Source of the DNA: Pachyseris speciosa
Taxonomy: Eukaryota; Cnidaria; Anthozoa; Scleractinia; Pachyseridae
Direction: 5' to 3'
DNA length: 64,000 bases
NCBI GenBank assembly: GCA_016490735.1
Contig: JAEMWC010000624.1
Coordinates: forward strand, 250,001-314,000
Shown piece by piece: positions 9,143 to 42,455 of this stretch. A program made the translations under genes and the position numbers. The notes beneath the pieces are model-generated. The model searched no databases and had not been told where the DNA came from. It saw only the letters and a list, made by a program, of their open reading frames with translations. Numbering within the stretch: the first letter of the stretch is position 1; each line of letters starts with the position of its first letter.

Positions 9143-9212
9143 CAACAGGGAAGATGGCCATTAACAGCAAGAATTTGATCGTCGGCAACCGCTTTGGGCA
9201 GATAATCTCCAT
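9143..9212 (-). CDS. Signal-peptide-like first coding exon, copy A
   Basis: ATG at 9212-9210 in a good Kozak context (AAGCATGG). 23 codons begin MEIICPKRLP and continue into a hydrophobic core (FLLLMAIFPV), then one G before a GTGAGT donor at 9142-9137 (phase 1). Positive residues followed by a Leu/Ile/Phe core fit an N-terminal signal peptide, and phase-1 introns after signal peptides are common in animals. Three more copies at 13221, 37795 and 42386 keep the frame, length and donor. The rest of the protein was not identified. Confidence 0.6.
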
Positions 9213-12115
9213 GCTTCTAAGTTTGCCAGTAGTTCGTAGTCATGCCCAACTCAAAGATGAATCCGGCAGCTGTTTCGAATATCAAACTACAATGGTGGCT
9301 GGATGAAGACTCAAGGAGTCTCTTTGACAATTCTAAATGCAACTATTCGACAGTTTGACCACTGATTTCCTGATCGATTTCGCGATCGATCCCTCGCATC
9401 ACGCAGTCTCGACCCAAATCTTCTCCACGTTTTAAGACTTCTGCGATATGCTAATTAATGCACATCTCCTAACATTTGAAAAGCGTCATTAAACTCAGTA
9501 ACAGCGACATTTTTCAGTGGCAATTAACTTTCAAATAGAAGTACGCTATCCAGGTTAACGTCAAACACAAAACCATAGAGGAAAATGGATTTTGTAATAA
9601 TTCAACTAATTATAATCTAGAACAGGCTGCTTATTTTGTTGATGTAACTTCCTTAAACACAGTTCGATACTGGTATAAAAAATAAACACAAGGTTAAATA
9701 GTTCTATTGTTGGTTAAAAATTACAGGATGATCATGGGATTCGGAAACTTTTTTTCCGTAAGAGAATTCTTTTCACACGCCATCAAGTCACGTTTTAGTT
9801 TAATTACAAATATCGATAGGAATGAGAAGCAACATGTTTTTCCTTCTTCAGTCAGTATTTGCAGTTCTATATTAAAAAAAGAAGTCGTTTAATTGGCGTA
9901 ACATTTGGCCGCGAAATGAGGATATTCGCTCAGTCTTGCATCAACTCAAACCAACTAAAAATCGACGAGGACCTTACACGGTGTTTTACATGTTCTGAAA
10001 TATTTTAATTCTGCATTTTTTTGACGACTGAGCGTAAAGTTGACCTTCCCTAAGCGTGACTTAAATTCACAATTGGTCTTTGACAAATGAGTTGTAAGGT
10101 ATTAAATTTGACGCCCCGCTAACTACAAATTAATCCTGGTGCTTATGATATATTTAGGGGCGAAATAATAAACATTTCCAGACGAAAAGGTGAATTAGGA
10201 CATGACAGTGTAGTAAGTTATGTTGCCTAAACTAAAACTTGTGACAAATTGGCTGCTAGTGACGTAATCCATTAGCTTCTGTTTATTTCTCATGTCATTT
10301 CTTTTAAGCATCAGTGTCTTCTTCCTCCGTTCCCGTAATTTTGAACTCGACCTCTTTTAATGTTCAGAATCCTCCTTACAATGTTGAATATAATATTCTT
10401 TTAACTCCTATTTTTCACTTTTGAGTGTTTCTGTGAACGTGACTCAAACCAAAAAGTAGATTAGCAGGTATTTTAACAGGTGTAGTGCCCTTTATTTCCA
10501 TATATTGCGCTGTTTGACTCACGATTGATTCACAATGAGTTCTTCCGGATAACAAAACGTCTTATTTTAATACTCAACTAACAAAAGGTAAAACAATCCG
10601 GCAGTCACGAGTGCGAATAAAACATATAGTTTTACGTTTTTTTTTTTTTTTTTTTTTTTGCGCATAGGAAAAGAACAGAAATTTTATTTCCACCCGAATA
10701 AAGGAATATTGCGTGCTCTTTTATCTAAGCAATTCCCACTGCTATGTGTTTGAATAATTACTTTGCCAGTTAAGCCTGGTACATAAAATAATGTAATTTG
10801 TTTAATGGGCATGGGTCAAAATACCAAGATCTAGTTCTTACAAAAATGGTTTGGGTTATTGTACTTCCCACATCTCAATTTATTCTTGGGCCGGGCACCA
10901 ACTGCACCTCCTGTGTTCATAAGCAACTGTAGTTTTGTCACTTGCTATGTAAATATGTCTTTAAGTGTTTAGAGTAAAAAAGCATTGTTGTTGTTGTTGG
11001 TGGTGGTGGTGGACCCTGGTGCATGCTTTTGATCTTACTTTCGATTCTCAGTTGGGTAGTTATTCCCGGGCCAAATTATCTGGCAGTTTGATCACTGTTG
11101 TTATAACGGATCACCGAATGTAAATTCACAGTGCTGTTTGAATGACCTTTAACGTTCACGGTAGTTCTTCACTTGCCCAAACCATTTATGGCGTACTTGA
11201 AGCTGACATGCCTTCCGTATCGGTTGGGCATGTTGGTCACGATTTTATAATTATCGACCATCTTGCAGCGTCAGTTCTATACGACAGCTCTCTGTTCAGG
11301 CGTGAACTTTGTTCTTTCTATCTCTGGCACCATGTTCTGTATGGCATGTGCTTCCACTTGGTGTTGGTCGACTAAACAACAACAGATACCAGCTGACAGC
11401 GAGTTCGACAATAGTAACAGGGAAGGAGATTATAATAAGTTTGAACTTTGGAAAGAAACCATTATTTCCAGAATCAAGGCGTAAATGCTAGTTCTAATAT
11501 AAGTCACTTTGAATAGCGATTGCTATGATAACGGACAGTGTGCTTGCTTGCTATTGAATTTTCATATAACAAAATGTTTGTACCTTACGCCTGACCGCGA
11601 TCGATTTATGACCAGTTCACATGACAAATTAACTGCTCCTCTAAACTTAGCTTTTCAGTTGCTTTAATAGCCAGAGTTAAAGCTTTTTGGTGAATCCTGA
11701 GTTCTCTCATTTTCGGAATCATACTTTACTTTTCCATTCGTCTCGAACGAAACATAAGGGCATTGTGATATACAGAACCGAGATGAATTAATCTTTCTTG
11801 CTGTTGCAAAATAAGTACGTTTCAGTTGATGAAGCATTCTATTTGGCTTATAAGCTATTCATGTGTTCTGCCAAGGATAACAGTGAAACAGAAAATTACA
11901 TTACAGCAAACAACATCCTAACCATTATTGTTGTTGCTTGATGATCATGATTACATCAGCTGGACGGTTTTGTCTGGTCTCAGCTTTGCATTCCTCCAGT
12001 TATTCAATGGTGCATAAATTGTTCTCTTCTGGGGCGATTCCTGACAATTGCATGGTGCATCCTTACTGCACCTAATTTATGGCGTCATTTGGCGCGCGCT
12101 TGTGCAGGCACACAT

Positions 12116-12200
12116 TTAGTCTCCCTCGCAGCCGTTTTTATAGGCTGTCACGCGAAGTTCCCACCAAGACAGCCAAAAACAGCGGCTGCGAGGGAGACTA
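12116..12200. mobile_element. 85-bp MITE with 8-bp target-site duplication
   Basis: Ends TTAGTCTCCCTCGCAGCCG and, inverted, CGGCTGCGAGGGAGACTA, flanked by the direct repeat GCACACAT at 12108-12115 and 12201-12208. The paralogous segment B near 20000 lacks the insert and has a single GCGCACAT. Tiny size, TIRs and an 8-bp TSD suit a hAT-type non-autonomous element; the superfamily is inference. Confidence 0.85.
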
Positions 12201-12699
12201 GCACACATGGAAAACATGGCTGATTTGCCTCGACATTGAGCTCTGTCAGTTGGAAAATGGATAAATCTCACTGACCACCTTGGGCATCCGATATGTTTCT
12301 ACTCATTTTAATCAACTAATCATAGCCTTTGCGTGAAAAAAGACTGATAATAATAATTTGTTTATTTGTGTCCGACACAATATGTTGACTGTAGTATAAC
12401 GAGAGTTGTCATGAGGCTGAACTCACATATAGTAACTGAATAATGCCAGAATGGGGCATTTTAATGCCTTACTGCTCCTAGAAAAGTCTCCCTGTTTTGT
12501 TTTAAAATTGACGTTCTCATATAATAAGTATTCAGTGGACAAAGTTTGAACAAAAATATATTGTCATTTTAATTTCCAAGGAATTACCTAAAGTCTACAG
12601 GTCTCTTACAAGCATTGTTTTATATGATCATTTATCTTTGAAAATATGTTTGCTTGTGTACAAAGCAGGACAAATGCCATGACATGTTAGGATCTTATT

Positions 12700-12828
12700 T
12701 CGGTGACGGTGACAGTGACGGTAAATAGTGACAGTGGCAGTGGCAGTGGCAGTGGCAGTGGCAGTGGCAGTGGCAGTGGCAGTGACAGTGACAATAGCAA
12801 TAGCAATAGCAATAGCAATAGAAATAGA
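12700..12828. repeat. Hexanucleotide array (GTGGCA / TAGCAA)
   Basis: About eight GTGGCA units followed by TAGCAA units, ending at the conserved GAGGTCAATAGCAAA. It occupies the same place relative to that landmark as the large 2526-3375 array; other copies (37190, 41812) have only one or two GGCAGT units. On the minus strand it would read as Cys-His/Tyr-Cys dipeptides, but the frame relative to exon 1 is not consistent among copies. Confidence 0.9.
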
Positions 12829-13220
12829 AGTTGAGGTCAATAGCAAATCTTAGGCGGTAAAAAGAAAAGAGAAAGAAAGAGTTACAATTATGTTCGCTAG
12901 TTAATCTGACTTTAGTCGTTAAATACTGCCGCTAGTAGTGCCACAAGTCAGCGGCAATCTCAAAGGCTTTATCTTTTATATGCGTGTAGTTAAATGTTTT
13001 ATTTTTAAGCGATAGGCTCCACAAAAGAAAAATAAAATAACAATTATCAATAGATATTCGCTCCTTTCTGGCTAAATAAGGTCAATGGGCTTAAGACAGA
13101 AACGAGCGAAACCGGTAACACGATTTCACGAGAAACCTCAGGAAACAAAAGAGAAAATATATCTCATATCTCATCCGGAAGTAAAGTACAGAGATGATGG
13201 GAAAGTACATTGTCACTCAC

Positions 13221-13290
13221 CAACAGTGAATATCGCAAATAACAGCAGGAAGTTGATCCTCGGCAACCGATTCTGGTAGATAAACTTCAT
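13221..13290 (-). CDS. Signal-peptide-like first coding exon, copy B
   Basis: ATG at 13290-13288; begins MKFIYQNRLP and ends with the hydrophobic FLLLFAIFTV, then a phase-1 GTGAGT donor at 13220-13215. Same 70-nt length as copies A, C and D, with many substitutions but no stop or indel, which points to selection or recent function. Downstream DNA to the next paralogous segment is only ~0.6 kb, so a full gene may not be present. Confidence 0.58.
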
Positions 13291-13685
13291 GCTTATAAGT
13301 TGTCACAAGTTCGCTGCCACAAGTTCGTTGCGATGCCTAACTGAAAGTTGAATGTAGCAGCTGTTTAGAACCCTCAAACCACAAAGGTGGCTTGATGGAG
13401 CCTCGCGAAGTCCCTTTGACAATTTTAAATGCAATCGACAGTTAGATCACTGTTTACCGTCTTTTTCAAAGGCTTCGATGCTTTCCTTGTTTGGCAGGTG
13501 CATTAAAGCACATCTAGTGACATTTGAAAGACATTATTGAACTGAATTATAGTGACAGTTTGCTGTTGCAATTAACTTACAGGTTGACACAACTTACCCA
13601 GGCTAACGCCAAACGAAAAACAACAAGACAATTTGTTTTAATTATTCAAGGAATTATAATTTATACTAGGCTGGGTATGTTGTGC

Positions 13686-13702
13686 TGGAGCAGGGTTGGC
13701 GC

Positions 13703-13734
<32 letters not shown>

Positions 13735-13992
13735 TCCCGGGTTCGATTCCCGGACTCCGTGTCATATGTGGGCTGAGTTTGTTGGTTCTCTACTCTGCTC
13801 CGAGAGGTTTTTCTCCGGGTATTCCGGTATATCCCCTCTCCTCAAAACCAACATTTGATTTAATTTGATTTGATTTGAGATTTGTAATTAGTAGGCGAAG
13901 AGCCACCTTGTGGAAGTACTACTGATAAATCGTTTATTATTATTATTATTGTTATTATTATTATTATTATTATTATTGTTATTATTATTATA
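13686..13992 (+). mobile_element. tRNA-derived SINE with conserved central domain
   Basis: Box A-like TGGCGCAGTGGTG (13698-13710) and box B GGTTCGATTCC (13740-13750) are correctly spaced for an internal Pol III promoter. A GC-rich body follows (CTCCGAGAGGTTTTTCTCC, then CCCCTCTCCTCAAAACCAAC) and a (TTA)n tail. The body resembles a widely conserved metazoan SINE domain (Nin-DC-like, from memory, not verified). It is absent at the matching place in segments A and C. Confidence 0.75.
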
Positions 13993-14462
13993 TAAAGAAA
14001 ATAATATATAATAGAGTTTTTAGAACAGAAAGAAATACCACATTTGAACTTTAGTTGAACTGGTTGGTTTAAGCTTGGAAGCTGTTAAGAAAGTGTTCAA
14101 AGCCAGCTATACGTAGTTAAGACAGTTCGAATTGGATCCTAGTATATTTAAAGATTGGTTGAAAATTCCAAAATATCATATTGTGGAACTACTAAACTCT
14201 TTTCCATAAGAACGTGACATGGAAAACAATAATTCTCTTCACACAAATTGCTTCACCGTTTGAGTTTCACTACAGACAGTGACTGGAATTTCATGCGAAA
14301 TGTCTCTCTGTAATTTTCCGAAAGGTTATATTTGTATTTCGTTATTTAAAAAAGAACTCTCTGCTTAAAATTTGGTCTCGAAGGCGGATATTCAGTTAAT
14401 GCAATCTCAGATCAGCTTAACACCAACTAGAAGCTTACACAGTGTTTTCACGCTTTCTGTTA

Positions 14463-14499
14463 TCATCATCATTATCATCACTAGCACCATCATTACCGC

Positions 14500-14544
<45 letters not shown>
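14463..14544. repeat. (CAT)n microsatellite
   Basis: ATC/CAT trinucleotide run, purest at 14500-14540. Produces a spurious Ile-rich ORF. Confidence 0.95.
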
Positions 14545-15163
14545 TATTGAAATTCAAATGAATTTGGGAAGTCAGACTTACCAAAGCGTGACCAAAGTTC
14601 GCAAGTGCTTTTGAAGAAGCTGATGGCTTTTGAAGAATTAAATTTGCGCCCCACTACCTACAAATTAATTCTGATGCGCTTATGGGTCAAGTAATAAAAA
14701 TAGCTACACGAAAAGGTGAATTGGGGCGTAACAGTGTCGTTAGTCACTTCGTGAATACTTTTAATTATGTGACAAATTAGTTTTCACTGACGTAAGCCAT
14801 CAGCCTCTTCTTTGTTCTCAAGTCGCTTCATTTAAGCATCAGTTTCTTTCTCTTCTTTTGAAATAACCTTTTTTTAATGTTTAGAATCCTCATTGCAATT
14901 TTAAACATTTCGTTGTTTTAATTTAGATATTATTTTTGCGTGTTTCAGCGAAAGCGGCTAAAACAAAAATATACGAGCAGGTATTTTAACAGGTGAAGCC
15001 TCATTTAAGGCCATCATATATATTGCTTTTTAACTCACTGTTTGTTTGCGAATAAAAAAGTGGTCATTAGCTAAGTACAAAGCAAAACAGCTTTCTGTAA
15101 TAACCAACCAGCTTGACAAGATAAAACAAGCCAGTCTCGAGAGCGAATGATATATACACTTTT

Positions 15164-15246
15164 TCTTTCTTTCTTTCTTCTTTTCTTCTTTTTCTTTTTC
15201 TTTTTTGTTTTGTTTTTGTTTTTGTTTTTGTTTTTGTTTTTGTTTT
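15164..15246. repeat. Pyrimidine/T-rich tract
   Basis: TTTC units then TTTTTG units. Simple repeat; no gene. Confidence 0.9.
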
Positions 15247-15849
15247 TTGGAACTTACAGACCTTGAGCTTTATTTTAACCGTACTTAAGACATAATGCGT
15301 GCTGTCATCTTAGCAATTTTCAGTAAATATTCAATTTTATTTACTAGTTGAGCTTTCAACTTCTATGAATGTCCTTAAGATACCAAGCTATGGTGTGGTC
15401 CTTTGCTAGGTAATCATGTAAAATTGTAGTACTTTCCTCGTTGTAAAAGGCCTAAAAGAAACATGGTAAAAGATTCGGTTTATTCAAGATATGAATAAAA
15501 CGTGGTGCTCAGTACGCCACCAGAGCGGGCATTAGTCTCTCAAATCATCTTGCATCCACCATCTTGCAGCGTTAAGTCTATCCGACGGCTATCTTTTAAG
15601 GCGTGACCTTTGTTCTTTCTCTCTGGCACCATGTTCTGTATGCCATGTGCTTCCACTTGGAGTTGGTCGACTAAACAACAACAGACAGCAGCTGACCGAG
15701 AGTTCGATAATGGCAACAAGGAAGGAGATTATATCATAATTTCGAGCTTTGAAATAAAACCATTATTTCCAAGTCAGTTTGTTGTTTAAATGTTCTATTT
15801 TTAACACATGAATTTTTATTCTTAACTTTTTTATTTTAATTTTAATCTT

Positions 15850-15954
15850 ACATTGTAAAGCGCTTTAGAATATTTCATAATCTTAGCACAATATAAATCT
15901 AATTTATTATTATTATTATTATTATTATTAGTAGTAGTAGTAGTAGTAGTAGTA
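15850..15954 (+). repeat. Retroelement-like 3' tail with (TTA)n(GTA)n
   Basis: ATTGTAAAGCGCTTTAGAAT ... ACAATATAAATCT and then TTA and GTA repeats. Same type of end as 5085-5175 but not the same tail unit. No coding portion is attached; inserted in segment B. Confidence 0.5.
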
Positions 15955-16413
15955 TAGCAATTGCTGTGCTAACGGACAGTGAGTGTGCTTTCAAGTTTCG
16001 ATATAACAAAATGTTTGAGCCTCACACCCGACCGCGATAGGTTTATGACCAGCTCACATGAGAAATTAACTGCACCCTTAAATTAAACCTAGTGGAGCTT
16101 ACTGGTGAATCCCGAATTCTCTCCTTTTTGGGAATCATATTTTACTTTTTACTTTTCCATTCGTTTCGAACGAAGCAGAAACGCATTTTGATATAGATAT
16201 ACATAGATAGATAGATAGATAGCTTTAATTCAAATCACATGGCAGCCCTCTAAGGCTGAATTGCATGAATTTACAAATATATTTGATACAAGATTTAAAA
16301 TATGAAAAAGTACAAAAAATATGAAAAAGTACAGTACAATATTGTACTTTAGAATTCTACTTTATAAAGTTATACTTTAAATGAGATTATACTTTATACA
16401 AAAACAAAAACTA

Positions 16414-16961
16414 CTAATGCTTGCACATAGATGGCAGAAATGTGCTAGAAAAACGCTTGGTCCGCATGACTGAATTTGCAAAGTGGCGTTGTCTCCTGAG
16501 GTTATAATGACAATAGTTCTTGGGAGGGAGAAAACGATGCAACTTATGATATGGATTAGATACAATGGAATCAAACAATTTTTTACATTGATCTATGCGC
16601 CTGTCCTCTAAAGGTGCCATATTGAACATTGACATGCTGTCATTGTAGGAAAGGCTTGGCGAAATGATTGATAGTGCACGTTTTTGAATGCGTTCAATAT
16701 CTTTACTTAAATAGTCAGGCAATGCGTTATGATACAGGGGGGGGGGGGCACAATATTCTAGGACAGGCCTTATACAAGTGAGATAGAACAAATAATATCG
16801 TGTGCTGGAACATTTGTACGCTTAAGTAATATAAGAAAGTAAATTCTCTTGTTGGCCTTTTGGATTATATCCAAGACGTGACAATTCCATTGGAGTGTGT
16901 TGGTTATAATAACTCCTAGCAATTTAACACTATCTACGCGTTCGAGTTCTTGAGAGTTCAC
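16414..16961 (-). pseudogene. LINE1 ORF2 C-terminal part
   Basis: 16961-16770 has RVDSVKLLGVIITNTLQWN; 16791-16414 has YLTCIRPVLEYCAP, IERIQKRALSI and LRRQRHFANSV. These are the thumb and C-terminal blocks of CR1/L2-like RTs, in shifted frames. A G-run (16738-16748) sits inside and may have caused one frameshift. Confidence 0.8.
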
Positions 16962-17137
16962 AGTAACTGCTTCAAAATGATGTTTACCTTCTTAAAGTCT
17001 ATAACGAGTTCCTTGTACTTATCCGCATTCAGCTGGAGCTTGTTGGTTGTAGCCCACTGCTCAAAAGCGTTAGCAGCTACCTGCATCCCACTTTGACCTC
17101 CACTTGGAACAACCTCAGCGAGCGTAGTGTCATCCAC

Positions 17138-17881
17138 CTATTTCCATACGTTATACCCAGAAGAGTGGAGATCGTTGATCATCAAAATGAAAAGCCAAGG
17201 GCCAAGTTTTGTGCCCTGGGGCACGCCTGATGGAACGGTTCCCCATTCGGAGAAGCAATCGCTAGTTAACTTCACTCGCTGGCGCCTATCCATTAGGAAG
17301 TCGCAAACCCAACGGGCAATTCCGCGAGGAATGCGCAAACCCAGAATTTTGGCAGCTATAATACCATGATCCACCAGGTCGAAAGCCTTTCTGTAATCCA
17401 AGCACACCACCCGCACCGCTGAGCTAGTACCATCCGTTGCTTGCGCCCACGCATGTATCATTGAAATGAGGGCACGTAGGGTTGAGGAATTTGGGATAGC
17501 TCCAAATTTGTTAGGATCAATCGACTCCAAGACTGCAGGACCAATGTATTTACTAACCACAAAGTCCTCTGCTAACTTGGACAGAGCCGGTGTTAGGGAG
17601 ATAGGTCGAATATGCTTGGCGATGGTAGTCACTGGCTTAACTTTCATCAGAGGTGTGACATCGGCATCCTTCCAGGACCTTGGAAGTTCCTGCTCAGCGA
17701 ATGATGCATTCAGAATGTCGCAGACCGGAGAAGTTAAGAAGTCAGCATAGTCTCGAAGAAGCCAGTTGTTAATACCATCTGGTCCCCCGGCCTTCCTCGG
17801 ATTCAGCTCCAAAAGAGCATTACATACCTCCGAGGGGGTAACTATTAGTAGCTCAGAGTCGTCCGCAAGTGGGGGAGGCAC
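17138..17881 (-). pseudogene. LINE1 reverse transcriptase, stop at catalytic motif
   Basis: Frame with NPRKAGGPDGINNWLL, the HIRPISLTPALSK block, VVCLDYRKAFDLVDH (motif A) and SGVPQGTKLGPWLF (motif B). It terminates at TAG exactly where motif C begins: the codons read W-K-stop-V-D-D-T-T, so the Tyr of YVDD is a nonsense codon. Reading continues in the same frame after the stop with DDTTLAEVVPSGG, so this is a point mutation. Confidence 0.88.
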
Positions 17882-18330
17882 GAAATCGGCGTATAGTCCT
17901 GCATTGGTTCCAGAAGAGCCGAGTTGATCATGTTTGCAATGTCCTGATTAGAATGCGCCGCGATCCCGTCAAGGTGTAAATGCGAAAGTATGTCTTCCTC
18001 ACCAGTAGCCGGAGTCATCCCAGCAATCATTTTAACTTCTCTCCACCACTGGCTAGGCTTGGTTGTCTTGAGGTTAGCAACTTTCGATGCGTAGAACTTT
18101 CCGCGACACACCTTTCGCTCACGATTTATGATCTTGCGAAGATGTCTATAACCCTCAGTATCGCCTTGCGCAAAGGCTTTTTGACGCGCCTTGATAAGCG
18201 CCTTAAATTCAGCTGTCACAGAGGGAGGGTCATTCACGTGCAGCTTGAAGGTCTTTAAGGGCATGATGATATCTAAGCCAATCTTGACGAGATCTTGAAA
18301 AAGCTGTAGCTTGCTTTCGCAGTCTTGCAC
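17845..18330 (-). pseudogene. LINE1 linker between endonuclease and RT
   Basis: 161-residue frame with LKTFKLHVNDPPSVTAEFKA, IKARQKAFAQG, INRERKVCRGKFY and QWWREVKMIAG. This is the usual basic linker before the RT palm in jockey/CR1-type ORF2 proteins. It is separated from the neighbouring pieces by frameshifts. Confidence 0.8.
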
Positions 18331-18335
18331 AGATT

Positions 18336-19295
18336 CTAAAAAAACCAGTCAATAGAGCCGAAATACCTGCCAAGATCGCATTTACGACTGGCGCGAGTAT
18401 CCCTGCGGGTGACGGAACGACGACTACAAGTGATGTGCCTGCTCCTTGGCATAGGCTCGAGTAATACCACCAGATGGTCAGAGAGACCAAAAGGAGGAGC
18501 AGTTTGCACAAGATCTTTGTTGTACACATGGGGCATATTGGTCAGAATAAGATCTAGTGTCTGATTACCCCTTGTTGGAACGCGCACAAGTTGCTTTAAT
18601 TTGAATTGGGTTTGAAGCCGACTGATGTTAAGCCGGTTGAAGTCCCCAGATAAAAGAATACCACAACCAGGATAACGCCCTTCGATAGTCGTAAGCGAAG
18701 AAATAAGATAGTCAATCATAGCAGCATCACTGGATCCGTTAGGATACAAAGTGTGGTAAACTGTACCTGAAACGATGCAAGGGAAGCCTCTCGGTAGTCG
18801 CGCCGGTCTAATATGAGCCCACAGCACCTCTAACTCAGGGTGGTATAAGTCAGTCAAGGCCTTGTACTTAATGGTGTTATTAATGTAAAGACCCACTCCG
18901 CCATGGACGCCGGACTTTCGGTTCTTTAGGCACAAATTATAGCCAGGAAGATGGAGATGATGTTCAGTGGCCGTGTCGTCGTAGATCCAGGTTTCAGTCA
19001 GCGATATGAAATCCGGCTTGTTATCATTGGCAAAACACCTAAGTTCGTCGATCTTAGGGCCAAGAGACATCATATTCGCTAGCGCAACAGAGGGACCAAA
19101 TTCCCTACTGTTTTGGCGCATGGCAACAGAAGCGTGAGGAACTTGAATGACATGGCGTGACAAAGGCGGCGGACGTGGCGGGTTTGGTATGCAAGTTCGT
19201 CTTCTTGGAAAAGCAGATTGAATATTTAATGAGCCAACATGGTTCCGAAACTTTAAAGCTCTCCCAGCTCGACAACCACGGAAAGGTCGTAACAT
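18336..19295 (-). pseudogene. LINE1 endonuclease (EEP-type) region
   Basis: 320-residue open frame with LTETWIYDD (catalytic Glu), GGVGLYINNTI, LSGDFNRLNIS, LDLILTN and FGLSDHLVV (terminal Asp-His). This is the exonuclease-endonuclease-phosphatase fold of CR1/L2/jockey-type LINEs, which nicks target DNA for primed reverse transcription. The key catalytic residues are present. The first ~75 residues look like a degraded N-terminus. Confidence 0.85.
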
Positions 19296-20544
19296 TCCGC
19301 AGTCTCGAAGTAAATTGAAGGAAGTTCCATCAATTGGGCTACGTTTGCATCTGGTCCCAAGCCGGCGAAGTTCACCAGGCGAGTAAATATAGGATTCACT
19401 ACGACGATGTGCATCGTTGCTCTCGTTTAGCGGGAAACTTGAAATGGATGGAAAAGGGTTTTGACAGCCAGACGGCGAACCAAAGGTCGACAGGTAGTTG
19501 GCAGCATGTCCAAGGCATAAGAAATAGATCTTTAAAGTTATGTGAATAAAAATGAGGACTATAACTTGAAGAAAACTTAGAAGATCAGAGAGCCTGACTA
19601 TACAGAACCGAGATGAATTAACCTTTCTCGCTGTTGGAAAATAAGTACGTTTCAGTTGAGGAAGGATTCCATTGGCTTGTCAAAATTTATTTTTAGATCC
19701 TTGTAAGCTATTCATGTGTTCATGTTCATGTTTTCTAAGAGTGAAATGGAAGGTGACATTACAGAAAACAACTTCCTTACCATTATTGTTGTTGTTTGAT
19801 GATCATCATTACATCGACTCACATTGATCAATTTCAAATTATTTGCACGGTTTTGCTTGGTTAAAAATCTTAGCTTTGTATATAATCCAGTTATTCTATG
19901 GTGCATAAATTATTCTTTTCAAAGATGATTCCTGACAATTGCATGGCGCATCCTTACTGCGCCTAGTTTATGGCGTCATTTGGTGCGCGCCTGTGCAGGC
20001 GCACATGAAAAACAAGGCTGATTTGCGTTGAACTCGAACTCTGTCAGTTGGAAAATGGCTATAGCTCACTAACCACCTTGGGCATTCTAAATGTTTTCCA
20101 GTCATTTTAATCAACTTATCATAGCCTTTGCGTGAGAAAAGACTGATTTGATTTATTTTGTTGAAAAATTAATAAATAAGTAAAAAAATTGATACACTGT
20201 TATTCCCAGTTTTTTTATTTTGGAAGGAATTTGGTCCAAATGTTTAATGAATGATCTAGTTTTCTATATAAATTAATACAGGGACTGTAGTTTAATGCAA
20301 GTTCTCGTGAGGCTAAACTCACATAGATTTTACAGTAACTTAGAAAGCGATCTTATAATAAGCATTAAGTAAACGCCAAAATGGGAGCATTTTAATGCCT
20401 CACTGTTCTTTAATGAAAATGGGTAGTCCCTCTTTTAATGCAAAATCGAGTTCTCGTGTGATAAGTATTCAGTGGACATTTTAACTTTCAGAGGAATTAC
20501 TTTATGTCTGCAGGTCTCTGCAAGCATTCTTTTATGTGATAATT

Positions 20545-20935
20545 TGCCAGAAAAATATGGATTTAGACCAAATTCCCGAACAACAGATAGTTTATTTATT
20601 CTACAGCAACTCCTTAGTAAGTATACAAAACACCACAAGAAACATTACGTTGACTTCATTGATTACGACAAAGCGTTTGAAAGCGCGTGGCAGTCTGGGT
20701 AATCTATAAACTCTACAAGTATGGAGTTAAAGGTAAATTCTTTAAAGTCATTAAACCCATGTCCTCGTCGATTAAAAGTTGCGTCAAAATTGATGAAAAC
20801 TCTATAACAGAAAAGTTCTCATGCAAGAAAGGAATAAGCCAAGAGGATGGCTTAAGTCCACTTCTATTTTCATTGTTTATGAATGATTTACCGCAGTACT
20901 TTAGGGAAGACCATTGTTCAAGAGTAAAGGCCCGG
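20545..20935 (+). pseudogene. LINE RT fragment
   Basis: Frame 1 has KYGFRPNSRTTDSLFIL and YVDFIDYDKAFESAW (motif A); after a frameshift near 20690 comes YKLYKYGVKGKFF and GISQEDGLSPLLFSLFMNDL (motif B, where G-x-RQGD is usual). Truncated at both ends, with no motif C. A different lineage from LINE1 and LINE2. It joins segment B at about 20545. Confidence 0.78.
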
Positions 20936-28410: not shown

Positions 28411-28417
28411 GCTACGC

Positions 28418-32230: not shown

Positions 32231-32826
32231 GTCGCATTTTGACAGTCATTCCTATTTTCATTGTTGAGTCGAACAACTGTTTCCATTATCAAAGGACTAT
32301 GTTGCCTGTTGGGGACTCGGAAGTCTAAACGTAATCGTAAGTTTGGTCAGTGTATCACGCAAAGTTTTAACATTTTAATACAGTGCCAGAACAAACTTGA
32401 TGGTCTTATTTTTGAATTGATTTCTTCTTCTTTTGTTTTCTCTTCTTCTTTTTCTTTTTACCAAGGAACTGAAACCAACGCTGAACAAACAGTGTGACTC
32501 AATCTGCGCGAAGTAGCAGTTGTTAGTGCGCGAAGTTATTTTTAGACAGTTCTTTTACGCTCAATTATTAAAATTTTTTAAGCCATTCGATATTTTACTT
32601 TAACGTTCATGATATCGTTACTCGCTCTTGATACTGTTATGTGCAGAAGGCACAAGCTTTTTCTCCTCATCGAACGTCTGTTTATTCTTCTGCGCTTTCT
32701 TTGGCCCGGGCCGTACTCTTCTTCGCCCACGGTGACTTTTCGCTGTTTACTCGTTTCATGAAGATGACTAATCTTTTTTTTTTCTCGTAACACAGTTTAA
32801 AAGTCTCGCCTCTTTAGAAATTGCGA

Positions 32827-32957
32827 ATGTTGATGTAAACAAACTATGTAGATTCACGGTAATTCGAGATCCAGGATGAAGATATAGTCGCAGAACCGCA
32901 GCACGCATCCTGGATCTCGAATTACCGTGAATCTGCATAGTTTGATTACATCAACAT
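32827..32957. mobile_element. Fold-back MITE, unit 1 copy
   Basis: Arms of ~52 bp (ATGTTGATGTAAAC...GGATCTCGAATT-type inverted with AATTCGAGATCC) around a ~27-base loop. The same element is at 38816-38947 in unit 2, so it predates the duplication. Confidence 0.88.
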
Positions 32958-32986
32958 TTGGTCACGTTTAATTTCCTCTTCAGGGG

Positions 32987-33304
32987 CATCCTTCGCAGAC
33001 GTCTTTGGGCTCGTCCCGCGTTTGTTCCCCACGAACGTATGCTGAACTGAACTACCACTTCCGTTTGCGGCGGTTAGCCAATCAAAGTTGGTGTTCCAAA
33101 TTGTGGAAAGTAGGACTTCGCCCAGGGATTATTTTCACAGACGATGCACGTGAACTGGTGTCGATTTCCATTCTTACGCACCTCGTTACCGGTTTCTTCA
33201 AAACAAAGGCTAACAGCCGGAGAACGGAAGTGACAGTTCAGTTCAGCAGACGTTCGTGCGCAAGGAACGCGTGACGAGCCGAAAGACGTCTGCGATGGAG
33301 GCTA
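32987..33304. mobile_element. 318-bp MITE, present only in unit 1
   Basis: TIRs of ~80 bp: CGCAGACGTCTTTGGGCTCGT at the left, and the right end reads the same inverted, with ACTTCCGTT and GGTTAGCC blocks in both arms. Flanked by TCTTCAGGGG at 32977-32986 and 33305-33314. Unit 2 (~38970) has one TCTTCAGGGA and no element. Long TIRs with a ~10-bp TSD would suit a Mutator-like MITE (inference). A partial relative is at 5535-5740. Confidence 0.85.
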
Positions 33305-34071
33305 TCTTCAGGGGGGCTCCTCGGTTGTGTTTTACTGGTCAGGGGTATGATCGCGTTGTCAGGAACTTCAATGAGGCGTGAGAAGTGTGAAAATCTTTGG
33401 AGGCCAAAAACTCGCGGTTAATTTTTGCGTGTATTCAATTCAATCGAATGAATTAATCTCAACCTAAATTTATCGGATTTGGACGAAATCTGACCAACGT
33501 ATTCGTCACACATTGATTCGCCAAAGTGAGTGAGACATTTTACAAACTTAAAAATATTTTGTCCCTGGCGTCCAAGCGCGGGACACGCCTGGTGAAAAAT
33601 TCCATTGGCCAACTAAACAATTGATGTTCTCAGGAACCAACGAAAATATCGAAAAAGCCTCACACTGATTTGTTAGTCTATTCTCTCCTGACTGATATAG
33701 AGCAGTTTGCTGTAAGGCAAGGACTATTAAATCCTTTGAGAAAACGCGGTCAGTTTTCCGTTTGAACGCTTGCGCTCGCCTAACAAAATTGTTAAGGTTA
33801 AAAGCTATTTTCAGATTTTATGGTTTATTAGCTTTCCAGTGGTATATAGTTTCTTGGAGTTTCTTTGAAAACAACGCGCAGAAGAGTGATTTTCCCGAAA
33901 GACACCCCTGAAGGTTTACAGGAACGTTAAATTTTACTATCAATATTGTATACTCATTAAACATTGGACAGTATTAACTAGAACCTTTGTTGTTTTGTTA
34001 GAACGTCTTCTGTCGACAATTCATAAACCGTCGCATTTCTTCCTCGTTTGAATTTGATTCCTGAAATATTG

Positions 34072-34486
34072 ATGGGAATGACATGCAGTCTTTCTAAAAA
34101 AAAAGAAGAAAAAACAAAAACAAAACAAAAAAACTCGTTTGCATCAACATTTGGCCTTCAACGTAGACTACTCACTCGAGCCTGACATAAATTGAGATCA
34201 GCTCAACACCAACGAGGAGCTTGCGCACTGTTTTACATTTTCTGAATTGTTTCATTTACAGAATACTTTGATGGGAATGGCATGCAGTCTTTCTAAAAAA
34301 AAAAGAAGAAAAAACAAAAACAAAAATAAAAAAATAAATAAATAAATAAACTCGTTTGCATCAACATTTGGCCTTTAAAGTAGACTACTCACTCGAGCCT
34401 GACATAAATTCAGATCAGCTCAACACCAACGAGGAGCTTGCGCACTGATTTACATTTTCTGAATTGTTTCATTTACAGAATACTTT
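34072..34486 (+). repeat. ~198-bp local tandem duplication
   Basis: GATGGGAATGACATGCAGTC..., an A-rich tract, CTCGTTTGCATCAACATTTG, CTCACTCGAGCCTGACATAAA and CAACACCAACGAGGAGCTTG occur twice in order. Unit 2 has lost most of this block (39733-39790). Confidence 0.85.
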
Positions 34487-37400
34487 GGAGGACTGGGTTA
34501 AAAATTAAAATAAATTCTAAAAAGTGGAAAGCTGTTCTTGCATGAACGTGACTTGAATTCACAAAGTTAGTTATGAAATTATTTTTCAAGTAATAAATTT
34601 GACGCCTCGCAACCTAATTAATTCTGGTGCGTCAGGGGTGGTATAAAAAACATTGTCATCCAAAAAGCGAAATTATGACGCGACTACAGTGTGTCAGTTA
34701 TCTTGGCAAGACTTTTCGTTATGTTAAATTAGTTCCCACTCAAGCCATTAAGTCATTAATGCATCTAAATCTTCTTCTTCGGCCTGCATTTTGAAACCAA
34801 ACTTGTTTTAGAATCATCATTAGAAAGTTAGATATTATGTGCCCATTTTCATTTTTGAGCATTTACTGCAAAAGCAGCTCAAACGAAAGATAAATTAGCA
34901 GGTATTTTAGCAGAGGATATATCTTTAAGTGCTATAACTTCCTTCCTCTGGCTCACTGAAGCATAAAGAGTTCTTGTGCATGGAAATAAACACACATCGT
35001 TGTCAGTCTGGAAAACAAAAATGTTTATTACATTAAGAAAACTTGTAAAGGCAGAAGAATCCAATATTTGCGTTGTTTGCGAATAGGAAACGGACTGAAT
35101 GGTATTTAATAATGGCATACGCATGCTCCATTCTTCCAGAGCAACTTACAGTGCTATGAGTTTGAATATTTATTTTGCTCGGGGCACAAAATTAAGTACT
35201 TTGCCTATGGATATGACTCAGATCAGTACCAAGCTAATGAGTGTTGTCCTTTGCTAGGTAATCATGTTTCAGCGCTGTCAAAAGCCTAAAAGAAAGATGG
35301 TCAAAGTTTAAGTTCTTCCAAGAAATATGTAAGATGCTCAGCACATCACGAGAGCGGGTGTCCCTTTGTCAACATGTCCAAAGAGTGTTTCCAGAAAATA
35401 ATTTTTAGTCCGAAGTGTTTATTTATTAATCAATTTTCAATTCTTAAATATTAACCCTTTCAAACCTATTCAAAATGGCATATATCTTAACTAACATTGT
35501 GGAAGTGAAATAATTCATCGTCGCCGAAATGATTTTAGGAATTTTAACGGCTAAAGCAAACCAGGACAATGAACGTATATGAGTCGTCGACGGGAACTGA
35601 ACCCATAAACTTCTGATATTCATTGTTACCACCAAGCCAAAAGGGATTTGGGGAAAACCAGGCCGATTGCTACTTTGAAATGTGTTACACTTCATGAATA
35701 GTGTTAATCCCGGTAATGGTGTAGGATTCCGGCGGTCTGGACAGGCATAAAATAAAGATGAAAGCGTGGTTAATGAAATGTAATCGCCAAATGGTCAGCA
35801 GTGTTATCTCTACTGTATGGTAGTTCCATTTTAAAGTTATGTACGCTGTGATATATTTTTCCTTATACCTGACTGGAATCAAAATAATAAGTAAAACGTC
35901 AACAAGCTGTTTCTCAAAAAACGATGCAAGATAACGGAAAGATAACAAAATCGTTTAATTTTTTTTTGCAGAAACTTTAATAATCCCTTCCACAACTTTA
36001 CAAGCATTACTGTAAAGAATGGCAACGCTTTTGCAAACTGCCGCGTTTGCTTCTTTGGCACGTAAATGCGACAGCCCTATGTTTTTCAAAATTCACTATT
36101 TTGGCGAGCGTTATCTTAAACTTTCTTGCTCCGGACCACGTCTCAGGCTGTCTCTGGCGGTCTCAGCTAGGCTGCTACACTCGGGTGAACATATTGTAAT
36201 AACCATTTAGTAAATGATAAAGTTGTTGTTGTTGTTTGACTGACCCCTTGGAGATTCACGTTGCAGAAACCAATGAGAACGTAAAGGTTTGGAAAAAGTA
36301 ATGGGTAGCCTTTCTCCCTATTTTGGCCAGCGTAAAAATTGCGTGAAGTAAAGGAATGAATCTGAAAATATATTCGTGAAGTGCTTCAGTATTGTCATAG
36401 ATTCTGAGTGATCACTGGGAATTTTTCAACCCAATAATAAATATATAAACATAAAAATAAATAAATAAAATAAAGAAATAACGCTTTCATAGTGTACTCT
36501 TTGTATATTCAAGACTTGAGTCTAAGAAACTTGTTATTGAGTTAGCCCGACGGCTACATGTAGCAAGTTTTTTAATTAGGCTGCATTGCAAGGCAAGGAA
36601 CTGAAATGCATTCCGTTATGCTTTGGGTTTTTCTCATCTTCTTAAGCACACAACGTTTTCGGTCCGGTAGTGGAATTACACAAGGTTATGTAAATTTGGG
36701 ATCTAAAAATCAAAAGAGTGGGTACCATTTTTTTTTTGCGGCGGGAACTGGGACGTGACTCCTGTCCCCAAAGAATTTGAAAAAGAGGACTATTCAGCGT
36801 ACCGGTGACAGAGTTGACAGAATTTTACTAACAGTAAAACGTTGTTAACACTGGCGTAACCAAAACCCCGTTTTATATTAGTAGTCGATCCTTCCTCAGT
36901 GAATACGTAAATGAAGGCGCGTGCTTTTCTATTCTGTATTTATAACTAGTATCACCTTTCAGGTATCCCGAGTAGTAAAACAGAAAGCAAATGTCGAAAA
37001 CAACATTTTCAACAAAACAAAGCTACAGGGTGTACACAGTTCGCTTTTAAATTATACTGCAAACAGTTTGTTTGCCCTTTCAGTCAAATGATGCTGTATA
37101 GCCTACAACGGCTGGTACTGATTAAGTTTTTTTTCTGGTGGTCGAATCCCTATGGGACAACTGTTGCCGGATAATTGTAACTCTGGCAGTGGCAGCCAGC
37201 ATTGAGGTCAGTAGCAAATACTTCGCCACAATGTGTTTTTCGTCGGATGATTGCAGATGGCAAATAAATAAACGTAGTTGTACTTAGAAATTTGAAAAAT
37301 TTTCCAAAATAATAATAAATATAAAAGATGAAAAACCGTTTACTTCAAAATTTAGGTCAGTTTTTTTTACATTTTAACAACAAACCCAAAACGGCAAATG

Positions 37401-37794
37401 GGCACTCTACCTGCTATTAAAATATCTGAGCTTTAGGACAACAAAAGCAAGCTTGGGGGAGAGTCCACAATAAAAATGAAAATTAGAAATCTATTAACTT
37501 GCTAATCTGGCGGTAATCCTTAAATATTGTCGCTTGGCTGGCCACAGGTCAGATACATTAATTCCAGACTCAAACAAAGACAAACGAAGAAACATTTGTC
37601 CGTAGATAGTCGCTTCCTCTGGGTTAAATAAGCTCGACGGGCTTAAGACAGTGACGAACGACAGCGAAACCGGTAACACGATATGATCATGATGAGGTAA
37701 TTCACCAGATCCAACCAAGAATACATTTTTAAAATATCTCATCAGGATAACCAAGTAAGGCAGAGAAATGATACAAAATTACATCATCACTCAC

Positions 37795-37864
37795 CAACAG
37801 TGACCATGCCAAATAACAGTAGGAAGTGGACATTTGGAAACCGCTTCTGGCAGATAAAGTCCAT
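37795..37864 (-). CDS. Signal-peptide-like first coding exon, copy C
   Basis: ATG at 37864-37862; begins MDFICQKRFP and ends FLLLFGMVTV, then a phase-1 GTGAGT donor at 37794-37789. Strong Kozak context (AAGCATGG). Closest to copy D in the other duplication unit. The conserved downstream block near 37205 (minus-strand TTTGCTACTGACCTCAATGC) might be part of exon 2 or a branch-point region; this is unresolved. Confidence 0.6.
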
Positions 37865-38815
37865 GCTTCTAAGTCAGTCGTGAGCTCGAAGTCATGCCCA
37901 ACTCAAATGGGAATCTAGTTGCTGTTTCGAACGAGAAAAGATAAAGGAGTCTTAACGGAAACCTTACAGGTCTCTTTGACAATTTTAACTACGACCGACG
38001 GTGATACCAGGGTTTCCCGATCGCTAAAATTTCACAGCCTTCAAATCTCACTAGTTTTTCAAGTGGAGGTGTTTTCCTTTCACAGCATGAAAACACACGC
38101 ATCTGGTAACATTTGAACAGCATTATTTAACTGAGCAACGATGACAGTTTTCAGTTGCAACTGACAAATAAGTTTATCGCTTCGGTTTCAGTTAATCAGT
38201 TTCAGCTGATTAACGCGAACACGCGAACACAGCTTATCCAAGTTCACGTCAAACACAAAACCATACAAGTCAAATTGAAATTTGCAGCTATTCAAGGAAT
38301 TAAAATTTAGACCAGGCTGGGTATTTTTGCCTCAATTTCCTTGTATGTGAAAACAATGTAAGCAAGATTCTGTAAAAGAAAGAAATTTTACATTAAAATT
38401 TAGTTGAACTTGTTAATTTAAAGTTCTTGATAATTGTCAAAGAACTGTTAAATTTAGAGCCAGTCATACTTTAGTTAAAGACACTTCGGTACTGGTATCA
38501 ATAAAATCAGCTTTCTCAATATATTAAGTAAAATAGAGTTCCTTATTTTACACGAAAATTTGGTCTATCAACAGAGTTGATAATGAAAATTGACCACCGT
38601 ACCGGCTTGTCAGGAGCAGAAGGCACAAGCAAGCAGAGGGCAGGAGCTTTTTTTTTCCTCATCGAACGTCTGTTTATTCTTCTGCGCTTTCTTTAACCCG
38701 GGCCGTACTCTTCTTCGCCCACGGTGACTTTTCTGTTTTTGCTCGTTTCATGAAGATGACTAACCTTTTTCTCTCGTAACACAGTTTAAAAGTCTCGCCT
38801 CTTTAGAAATTTCGA

Positions 38816-38947
38816 ATGTTGATGTAAACACACTATGCAGATTCACGGTAATTCGAGATCCAGGATGAAGATGTAGTCGCAGAACCGCATCACACATCCT
38901 GGATCTCGAATTACCGTGAATCTGCATAGTTCGTTTACATCAACATT
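38816..38947. mobile_element. Fold-back MITE, unit 2 copy
   Basis: Same arms and loop as 32827-32957 with a few substitutions; see that entry. Confidence 0.88.
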
Positions 38948-41109
38948 TTGTCACGTTTCCTCTTCAGGGAGGTTCCTCTGTTGATCTCTATTGGTCGGCG
39001 GTATGACCGCGTTGACAGGAACTTCAATGAGGCGTGAGAAGTGTGAAAATCTTTGGAGGCCAAAAACTCGCGGTTAATTTTTGCGTGTATTCTCTTCATT
39101 CAAATGAATTAATCTCAACCTAAATTTATCGGATTTGGACGAAATTTGAGGAACGTATCCGTCACACATTGACTCACCAAAGTGTGAGAAACATTTTACA
39201 AAATCCAAAATATTTTGTCCGTGGCGTTTAAGCGCGGGACACGCATGGTGAAAAATTCTATTGGTCAACTTTACAATTGATGTTCTCAGGAACCAATGAA
39301 AATATCGAAAACGCCTCACACTGATTTTTTTTAGCCTATTCTCTCCTGGATGATATAGACCAGTTTGTTGTATCGCAAGGAATATTAATTCCTTTGAGAA
39401 AACACGGTCAAGTTTCCGTTTGAACGCTTGCGCTCGCCTAACAAAACAAATCTGTTAACGTTAAAAGCTATTTTCAGACTTTATGGTTTATTAGCTATCC
39501 AGTGGTATGTAGTTTCTTGGGGTTTCTGTGAAAACAACGCGCAGAAGAGCGATTTTCCCGAAAGACACCCGTGAAGGTTTACAGGAACGTTAAATTTTAC
39601 TAGCAATATTGTATATTCATTAAACATTGGAGAGCATTAATTAGAAGTTTTGTTGTTTTGCTAGAACATCTTCTGTCGAAATTCATAAACCGTCGCATTT
39701 CTTCCTCGTTTGAATTTGATTCCTGAAATATTGATGGGAACGGCACGCAGTCTTTCTCAAAAAAAAATTGAAATCTGAATTGTTTAAATTACAGACTACT
39801 TTGGAGCACTGGGTTAAAAATTAAAATCAACTCTAAACAGTGGAAAGTTGTTCTTGGTTGAGCGTGCTTGAATTAACAATGTTAGTTAAGAAATTATTTT
39901 TTTCAAGTATTAAATGTGACGCCTCGCCACCTACAAATTAATTCTGGTGTGTCAGGGGTGATATAATAAACATTGTTATCCGAAAAGGGAAATTAAGACG
40001 CGACTACAGTGTGTCAGTTATGTTGGCAAGACTTTTCGTTATGTTAAGTTAGTTCCCACTGACGTAGATCATTACCTTTTTTCCATTTCTTAAGGCATTA
40101 AGTTATTAACGCATGTAAATCGTCTTCTTCTGCCTGCATTTTGAAACCAAACTTGTTTTAGAATCCTCATTTGAAAGTAAGATATTATGTGGCTATAGGA
40201 CCTATTTTCATTTTTTAGCATTTGATGCAAGAGCAGCTTAAACTAAAATAAATTAGCAGGTGTTTTAGCAGTGGATGTATCTTTAAGTACTATAACTTCC
40301 TTCCTCTGGCTCACTGAAACATAAAGAGTTCTTGTGCATGGAAATAAATACGCATTGTTGAAGTCTGGAAAAAAAAGCGGTTTGTCGGACTTAACAAACT
40401 TGTAAAGGCAGAACAACCCAATATCTGCGTTGTTTGCGAATAGGAAACGGACTGAATGGTATTTGAACCTTAATAATGGCATACACATGCTCAATTCTTT
40501 CAGAGCAACTTACAGTGCTATGGGTTTGAATATTTATTTTGCTCGGGGCACAAAATTAAGTATTTCGCCTATCGATATGACTCAGATCAGTACCAAGCTA
40601 CTGAGTGTTGTCCTTTGCTAGGTAGTCATGTTTCAGCGCTGTCGATAGCCTTAAAGAAAGATGGTCTAAGTTTAAGTTCTTCCAAGAAATGAATAAGATG
40701 CTCACCACACCACGAGAGCGGGTGTTCCTTTGTCAACACGTCCAAAGAGTGTTCCCAGAAAATATTTTTTGAGTCCGAATGTGTTTATTTATTTTTATAA
40801 ATGGTGGTCTCAGCTAGGCTGCTACACTCGAGTGAACATATTGTAATAACTATTTAGTAAATGATAAATAAAGTTGTTGTTGTTGTTGTTTGACTGGCCT
40901 CTTGGAGATTCACGTTGCAGAAACCAATGAAAACGTAAAGGTTTGGAAAAAAGTAATGAGTAGCCTTTCTCCTTATTTTGGCCAGCGTAAAAATTGCGTA
41001 AAGTAAAGGAATGAATCTCAAAATCTACACGGATAGTGCTTGAGTATTTTTGCTAGATTCTGGGTGATCACCGGGAATTTTTCAACCCAATAATAAATCA
41101 ATAAACATA

Positions 41110-41144
<35 letters not shown>

Positions 41145-41935
41145 CGCTTTCATAGTGTACTCTTTGTATATTCAAGACTTGAGTCTAAGAAACTTGTTCT
41201 TTAGATAGCCGGACGGCTACATGTGGCAAGTCTATTGATTAGGCTGCATTGCAAGGCAAGGAACTGAAATGCATTCCGTTATGCTTTGGGTTTTTCTCAT
41301 CTTCGTAAGCAAATAACGTTTTGGGTCAGGTAGTGGAATTACCCAAAGTTATGTAAATTTGGGATCTAAAAGCAAAGGGTCGGTACCACTTGTTTGTGGC
41401 GGCAACTGACACGTGACTCATGCCCCCAAAGAGTTCAGCGTACCGGTAAGAGATCTAGAGCCGACAGAATTTGACTGACAGTAAAACGATGTTAACGCTG
41501 GCGTAACCAAAACCCCTGTTTTTGTTCGTAGTCGATCCTTCCTCAGTGAATACGTAAATGACGACACGTGCTCTTCTATTGTGTATTTATAACTACTACC
41601 GCCTTTTAGATATCCCGAGTAGTAAAACAGAAAACAAATGTTGAAATCAACCCTTTCCACTAAACAAAGGTACAAGGTGTACCCAGTTCGATTTTAATAC
41701 TGCAAACAGTTTATTTCCCGTTTCAGTCAAATGATGCTGTATAGCCTACAACGAATGGTAGTGCTCAAGTTTCGTTCTGGTGTTCGACTCCCTTGCCGGG
41801 TAATTATAACTCTGGCAGTTGTAGCCAGCATTCAGGTCAGTAGCAAATACTTCGCCATAATGTGTTTTTCGTTGGATGATTGCAGATTACGAGTAGAAAA
41901 ACGTAGTTGTATTTTGAAATTTGAACATTTTCCCA

Positions 41936-41938
<3 letters not shown>

Positions 41939-41993
<55 letters not shown>
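41939..41993. repeat. (AAT)n microsatellite
   Basis: Uninterrupted AAT run in unit 2. The matching place in unit 1 (~37310) has only a few AAT units. Confidence 0.97.
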
Positions 41994-41997
<4 letters not shown>

Positions 41998-42061
41998 GTG
42001 TCCATGGGCACTCCAGCTGCTATTAAAATATCACAGCTTTAGGACAACAAAAGCAAGCTTA

Positions 42062-42090
42062 TGAATGATATATGAAATGAATCATATATC
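42062..42090 (-). mobile_element. 29-bp SINE-tail insertion with 9-bp TSD
   Basis: TGAATGATATATGAAATGAATC... is flanked by GCAAGCTTA at 42053-42061 and 42091-42099. Unit 1 has a single GCAAGCTT and no insert (~37450). The insert matches, in reverse complement, the palindromic tail of the SINE near 51740. An extremely truncated copy, or a minimal hairpin element. Confidence 0.8.
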
Positions 42091-42385
42091 GCAAGCTTAG
42101 GGGAATAATCCACAATAAAGATAAAAATTAGCTTGCTAATCTGGCGGTAATCATTAAATATGGTCGCTTGTCTTGCCACAGGTCAGATACATTAATTCCA
42201 GACTCAAACAAAGAAGATAGTCGCTTCCTCCGGGTTAAATAAGCTCGACGGGTTTCAGACAGGGACGAACGGCAGCGAAACTGGTAACACGATATGATCA
42301 TGATGAGGTACATTTTTAAAATATATATCTCATCAGGATAACAAAGTAAAGCAGAGAAATGATACAAAATTACATCATCACTTAC

Positions 42386-42455
42386 CATCAGTGACGATGC
42401 CAAATAACAGTAGGAAGTGGAAATTTAGAAACCGCTTCTGGCAGATGAAGTCCAT
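42386..42455 (-). CDS. Signal-peptide-like first coding exon, copy D
   Basis: ATG at 42455-42453; begins MDFICQKRFL and ends FLLLFGIVTD, then a phase-1 GTAAGT donor at 42385-42380. The donor differs from the GTGAGT of the other copies but is equally consensus, which suggests the splice site is maintained. Confidence 0.6.

Follow-up and report, generated by a model that had tools for sequence, protein, structure and literature searches.

Four short exons of one type recur on a 64,000-nucleotide stretch of the genome of the coral Pachyseris speciosa (assembly GCA_016490735.1, 984 Mb; contig JAEMWC010000624.1, positions 250,001 to 314,000; hereafter the window), and the question they raise is what kind of gene they begin. 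A preliminary description had taken them for signal-peptide exons of a duplicated secreted or membrane protein. We propose that these exons, c1-c4, are very probably the first exons of a tandem array of adhesion G-protein-coupled receptor (GPCR) genes, each providing the end of the 5' untranslated region, a signal peptide and a phase-1 donor. The genes of the array are predicted to comprise such a first exon (type S), TSP1 repeats (exon types T1 and T2), a threonine-rich hinge, GAIN and GPS domains, a seven-transmembrane (7TM) region and a C-terminal tail (C-tail). Plain coordinates below are window positions; others carry a contig handle, C624 being the contig that holds the window (C624:250001-314000), of which we read 90-354k and 464-536k at the DNA level.

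The four window exons and the exon chain of gene A

All four exons lie on the minus strand, are 70 nt long, start with an ATG that has A at -3, stay open and end at a phase-1 donor. They are c1 (MEIICPKRLPTIKFLLLMAIFPV, 9143-9212), c2 (MKFIYQNRLPRINFLLLFAIFTV, 13221-13290), c3 (MDFICQKRFPNVHFLLLFGMVTV, 37795-37864) and c4 (MDFICQKRFLNFHFLLLFGIVTD, 42386-42455). The donor is GTGAGT in c1-c3 and GTAAGT in c4, all as first described, and c2 has A instead of G at +4. Judged by inspection and hydropathy, the encoded peptides begin with a stretch that includes K/R and continue into a core rich in Leu/Phe. When the 64 kb was filtered on either strand for a purine at -3, an open frame, a hydrophobic run, K/R and a donor scoring no lower than that of c1, five candidates remained, four of which were c1-c4; the thresholds were chosen with these exons already in view.

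The gene to which such an exon belongs is seen on the same contig in gene A, which begins with an S exon at C624:157.85k and has all its downstream exons on the same strand. A T1 and a T2 exon (C624:152.4k and 150.3k, 171 nt each, phase 1-1) are followed by the hinge exon (C624:149470-149415, 56 nt, phase 1 to 0), a linker exon (C624:147658-147599, 60 nt, phase 0-0) and, further 3', by GAIN exons, the GPS exon at 141.4k, transmembrane (TM) exons and the C-tail exon at 137.0k. Splicing in silico through GT-AG junctions joins S, T1, T2, hinge, linker and the first GAIN exon (GAIN1) into one open frame of 233 codons. Exon order, phase and open frame from S through GAIN1 can thus be read directly in the DNA; that the gene is transcribed and spliced, that S acts as a signal peptide and that the product is an active receptor we infer. 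All ten TSP1 exons on C624 that retain both splice sites are in phase 1 at both ends, hence any S exon would join any of these ten in frame.

Pfam names TSP_1, GPS and 7tm_2 among the receptor exons. The GPS motif is present (6.7e-13) and the 7TM region is of class B2/secretin type, with 7tm_2 found on two exons. GAIN1 alone gave no Pfam match, and the GAIN exons align with ectodomains of coral adhesion GPCRs. The Pfam scans of the window covered the minus strand (bar about 20 bp and edge effects) and positions 3501-13490 of the plus strand, with E-value cut-offs of 0.01 to 1. The idea of a tandemly duplicated membrane-protein family with signal-peptide-like first exons and phase-1 splicing is supported. 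The product, which had been left as unknown, is predicted to be an adhesion GPCR with TSP1 repeats, given that downstream TSP1, hinge, linker, GAIN, GPS, 7TM and C-tail exons have been identified by sequence.

A 650-residue concatenation of the gene A exons matched 280 proteins at E <= 0.001, and the best 120 were listed. The best full-length relatives among the matches listed are adhesion GPCRs of stony corals with mixed names, ADGRD1-like being frequent: an ADGRD1-like receptor of Oculina patagonica (P0006) is 55% identical over 79%, a Desmophyllum receptor (P0007) 52% over 87%, and receptors of Acropora, Porites and Pocillopora are also listed. Several listed adhesion GPCRs have a C-type lectin domain in place of TSP1. 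The best PDB match of the concatenated exons is ADGRD1 (1.4e-51). The database names are a mixture of D1, L, E and G and the closest solved 7TM is that of ADGRD1; the ADGRD1-like subgroup label is tentative. One protein search with the 7TM region only gave no match. A different ectodomain from the TSP1 type is indicated for another receptor body on C624, which has a lectin-like match upstream of it at C624:472.2-472.8k.

When 103 N-termini were compared with the S peptides (ungapped, best of three offsets), the ten best all came from coral receptors of this kind, eight of them from Acropora, and a shuffle of one composite Acropora pattern gave p = 0.007. This likeness is suggestive only, because signal peptides are alike in composition.

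Conservation and frame retention of the first exons

The preliminary description had set indel-free exons against flanks diverged with many indels, and had named exon divergence equal to that of the flanking DNA as an outcome that would speak against them. The first part stands: there is no indel inside the exon among c1-c4. The second does not hold close to the exon. Mean pairwise identity among ten S copies is about 0.82 in the exon and 0.80-0.87 in the close flanks (about -105 to +35), and c1 can be aligned with c3 and c4 from -100 to +60 without an indel. Exon divergence therefore equals that of the adjacent flank, identity further out being mostly lower (0.67-0.79). This conserved core lies at 9108-9317 on the minus strand around c1, as delimited by windowed identity among the ten copies, with equivalents at c2-c4. 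Hence exon identity was ruled out as proof of constraint, and frame retention has to carry the case instead. By codon position the variable S sites number 12, 9 and 13, and the pooled ratio of nonsynonymous to synonymous differences (pN/pS) is 0.82 over 45 pairs. The description of the family as fast-evolving is a fair one for S and less so for the TSP1 exons, for which 13 of 15 T2 pairs have pN/pS of 0.39-0.68, the remaining two being 0.13 and 0.89.

Frame retention is high. In the C624 DNA that we read, 10 of 11 full S copies keep the ATG, the open frame and a GT donor, one of them (C624:121.7k) with the weaker donor GTTAGT; the eleventh, at C624:502.5k, has an 11-nt deletion and has lost its donor. 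In a rough neutral simulation at least 10 of 11 intact copies were obtained with P 0.00025-0.054, and with P 0.0005-0.041 when the broken copy was left out. Six more copies, on C472 (two), C1954, C1442, C1006 and C683, are intact, and three of these, the two on C472 and the one on C1954, are identical to c1. The protein of c2 recurs unchanged at C472:489.2k and C472:364.1k. All 47 protein-level S matches are free of stops; stops would have been shown in this search, although its E-value limit is biased towards well-preserved copies. In both C472 copies 161 bp around c1 (9100-9260) are identical, the surrounding 3.2 kb being only about 97.6% identical, and this identical core may hint at constraint.

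Such observations bear on the least probable of the alternatives, that c1-c4 are chance open frames in a duplicated non-coding repeat: a pN/pS near 1 and an exon identity like that of the flank would suit it, but the in-frame join to a receptor gene speaks strongly against it, as do the 47 stop-free matches and the clustering of S with receptor bodies, and we regard it as scarcely credible.

The exons have multiplied with their surroundings. Comparison of the window with itself by blastn places c1 and c2 in older duplicated units, 9039-12633 being collinear with 13024-20545, and c3 and c4 in a recent tandem duplication (32643-38602 and 38633-43175, with blocks 83-91% identical). A 289-bp match to c3, 97% identical, lies at C624:117.1k. 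The c2 unit has an insertion at about 16.2-19.6k of a long interspersed nuclear element (LINE); this retroelement remnant (16414-19679, minus strand) gave a reverse transcriptase match (1.3e-14) and an endonuclease match just below the cut-off. A fifth S copy was sought at 32.2-32.3k, where upstream sequence matches were found and no exon. A small secreted-peptide gene within each 4-5 kb unit was considered and rejected, as no clear coding exon was found among 42 shared open segments (minus-strand c3/c4 segments of at least 25 codons, scored by dN/dS, with splice sites left unscored). A block repeated upstream of the S exons at five places was ruled out as coding by frame-breaking indels, and the 201 bp around c3 had no match in a phage collection.

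First exons and receptor bodies in the array

Searches of the assembly gave 57 S positions and 48 receptor-body positions on 11 contigs, with 20 T1 positions on the S-bearing contigs. The S total merges protein-level and DNA-level searches (47 plus 10), omits the broken copy at C624:502.5k and includes a weak partial match at C1954:47.3k that may be chance. S counts are lower bounds because the DNA searches scored the best 40 of 64 and the best 40 of 66 candidates. Bodies were counted on S-bearing contigs as TM5-7 exon matches of at least 60% identity (from 134 matches, those on other contigs being left out); 42 extend over the full 70 residues or nearly so and six are partial, one has an internal stop, and one adjoining fragment on C15 was merged into its neighbour. 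The T1 positions are matches of at least 61% identity among the best 150 of 711 candidates, one of them partial, and the count leaves out rows of 65-69% on C459 and C447. Ten of the 11 contigs have bodies, C2034 being the one without, and S and bodies share one orientation on each contig with the sole exception of an S at C683:485k. Overall, S and bodies are about equal in number, S being in excess only locally, and some of the S positions counted separately may be allelic to each other.

A tree of the ten aligned S copies splits beta (c1 and the copy at C624:157.8k) and gamma (c2 and that at 167.7k) from the rest, alpha, to which c3 and c4 belong; outside these ten the labels rest on search identity, alpha being the default. 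At eight places (C624 twice, C472 twice, C1442, C1006, C683 and C282) gamma precedes beta by 4.1-9.9 kb, and the interval contains neither a T1 nor a body match; in six of the eight cases the next elements behind the pair are T1 and a body, in this order, and only then another S. At such places several first exons appear to stand upstream of one body, as in a variable-first-exon locus. Some of the pairs are probably allelic, as the 2.8-3.1 kb surrounding beta on C1442, C1006 and C683 match the copy at C624:157.8k with 95.6-97.9% identity. The two pairs on C624 are older, with about 79% identity around beta. There are also unpaired cases, namely gamma without a nearby beta match and beta without gamma (C1954), and on C751 each of three S exons has a body before the next S.

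As a working hypothesis, separate from the identification of c1-c4 as first exons, each S copy would have its own promoter. Gamma and beta would then be alternative first exons of one receptor wherever both precede one body, because no T1 or body lies between them to which gamma could splice first. Such shared alternative first exons are plausible, and two of them before one receptor gene may let the receptor start from different points. A reservoir of promoter-plus-signal-peptide cassettes, as the preliminary description put it, may exist, with the eight gamma-beta pairs in its favour. In its full form, a reservoir of gamma, beta and alpha exons would feed a smaller number of TSP1-adhesion-GPCR bodies, regulation being diversified by first-exon swapping and TSP1 number varying through the phase 1-1 exons. 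We put this forward tentatively and consider it more doubtful than probable.

The window also holds a receptor body, body B (55.8-63.6k), on the minus strand. Its exons are GAIN exon 1 (63425-63598) and GAIN exon 2 (62603-62746, a match range with ends not fixed), both found by tblastn among copies and aligning with coral adhesion-GPCR ectodomains; the GPS exon (match range 60328-60450, Pfam GPS 6.7e-13); TM1 (60024-60131), TM4 (57594-57677) and TM4b/TM5 (57177-57242); TM3 (58029-58178, 7tm_2 1e-8); TM5-7 (56698-56907, 7tm_2 7e-11); and the C-tail exon (55801-56070). T1, two T2 exons, hinge, linker and GAIN1 of body B form one open frame when its frameshifted third T2 exon is omitted. A 42-bp tandem repeat occupies 59518-59913, between the TM1 and TM3 exons.

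Several results weigh against the assignment of c1-c4 to such receptor genes. The first five matches of the concatenated exons are TSP1-rich proteins that are not receptors, although they cover 18-20% only; no adhesion GPCR among the best 120 of the 280 matches has TSP1 in the precomputed Pfam list; and S plus T1 as a query found nothing in the protein database at E up to 10. The spliced frame of gene A ends at GAIN1, the later exons being placed by order and strand only, and the T1 acceptor is weak (-5.1 in a simple matrix, against 2.5 for an in-phase site lying 24 nt upstream). The S exon is no better conserved than its adjacent flank, and its pooled pN/pS is 0.82. On C624 the nearest complete body behind c1 is about 120 kb away (259.2k to 137.7k), with two TSP1 exons and another gamma-beta pair intervening. 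Body B is without an S exon, S-flank sequence persisting upstream of it at C624:318.7-319.4k, and may have no first exon of its own; together with the one broken S copy this means that the array contains dead parts.

The distance of about 120 kb implies that c1-c4 may themselves be non-productive, and the best of the alternatives, to which we give an even chance, builds on this. It holds that tandem duplication and loss of the body have turned c1-c4 into orphan first exons, which, whether transcribed or silent, make no receptor and inherited their frames from parents that were functional until recently; it is compatible with their identity as first exons. No GAIN, GPS or 7TM exon match is found on C624 from c1 to 168k, where the next gamma-beta pair and then gene A follow. 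Behind c4 and c3 lies a dead T1-type TSP1 exon with in-frame stops (30057-30209, minus strand). Three further alpha pairs, whose ends are at C624:117.1k, C282:365.8k and C683:123.0k, likewise have stop-bearing T1 exons behind them, at C624:109.6k, C282:373.2k and C683:115.5k. The equality of exon and adjacent flank points the same way, and c3/c4 and c3 with its 117k relative are young copies. Other T1 exons are stop-free, namely those following the alpha pairs of C1954 and C282:701.8/707.4k and the one following the S at C282:80.1k. Against the orphan state, 10 of 11 intact copies would be improbable under the rough neutral model, and the two TSP1 exons next behind c2 and c1 (C624:234.1k and 232.9k) are open, one with a dN/dS of 0.13 against its nearest body B copy. 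On C472 there is an exon identical to c1 at 484.6k (the identity extends over 161 bp and is 97.6% across 3.2 kb), behind which come T1 at 472.6k, three TSP1 matches and a body at 455.7k. Hence c1-type exons do begin a gene that appears complete, and it is the window copy that appears to have lost its body. For c1-c4 themselves decay after duplication is at least as likely as use.

If they are used, c1-c4 could be alternative first exons of gene A, in which case some 155 kb holding six S exons and a single body would form a variable-first-exon locus. The phases permit every combination, c1-c4 give open frames when joined to the TSP1 exons at 234.1k and 232.9k, six S and one body do lie between the C-tail at 305.8k and the end of gene A, and gamma-beta pairs are found at eight places. 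Against it, the splicing would have to span an intron of about 80 kb (232.7k to 152.5k), and stretches with one S to one body exist in the array, on C751. We consider this arrangement unlikely.

More improbable by far is that the S and TSP1 exons form a separate short gene for a secreted TSP1 protein, interspersed among the receptor genes. As cassettes the TSP1 exons can replace one another, the listed adhesion GPCRs are without TSP1, and another gene on C624 has the lectin-like ectodomain match; yet in both A and B the hinge (phase 1 to 0) and the linker (0-0) connect T2 to GAIN1 in frame.

Other window features and comparison with known systems

Elsewhere in the window there are reverse-transcriptase-like open reading frames at 46000-49350 (plus strand) and 65-2072 (minus strand); the part at 48.3-49.3k resembles 65-2072, and both may be Penelope-like. 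A long array of 12- and 18-bp repeats occupies 2448-3400. An inverted repeat of about 800 bp (21827-22630) overlaps an open reading frame that may encode a transposase helix-turn-helix.

The locus offers a concrete unit for testing: an array of adhesion GPCRs with TSP1 that has, in places, more first exons than bodies. Should the twin first exons be in use, the choice of promoter and the length of the ectodomain could be examined at each locus in turn, and anyone counting genes in arrays of this kind must keep promoters and bodies apart. Published work describes large, tandemly expanded families of surface receptors in corals, with roles largely open (PMC10236652, PMC11639872): tandem duplication is reported to be pervasive, 34 of the 192 amplified coral orthogroups being of rhodopsin-like GPCRs (PMC10236652), and a secretin-GPCR orthogroup to be relatively enriched in Pocilloporidae (PMC11639872). 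Adhesion GPCR and TSP1 proteins are reported from coral larvae in a further study (PMC12960093). In the open-licence literature we found neither this locus nor any TSP1-bearing ADGRD1-like array described, and nothing on signal-peptide first exons that occur in pairs.

Compared with other coral adhesion GPCRs, the predicted receptor has the same succession of GAIN, GPS, 7TM and C-tail, and S-like signal peptides occur in Pocillopora, Montipora and Acropora. Those among the matches listed are without TSP1, several having a C-type lectin domain, whereas the receptor described here has TSP1.

The vertebrate ADGRB (BAI) receptors have TSP1 repeats ahead of GAIN, GPS and 7TM, an arrangement which the receptor here would share. 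For ADGRB1 an alternative promoter is reported (PMC11711277). Unlike ADGRB, the 7TM region here matches ADGRD1 and ADGRL structures best, with no ADGRB in the best 60 of 107.

UGT1A and the clustered protocadherins are variable-first-exon clusters, in which several first exons lie upstream of one body. The gamma-beta pairs and the six S exons before the gene A body resemble these clusters, with own promoters presumed. Shared use of S exons is hypothetical here and, in contrast to both, S encodes the signal peptide only; the mature receptor would therefore hardly differ between first exons.

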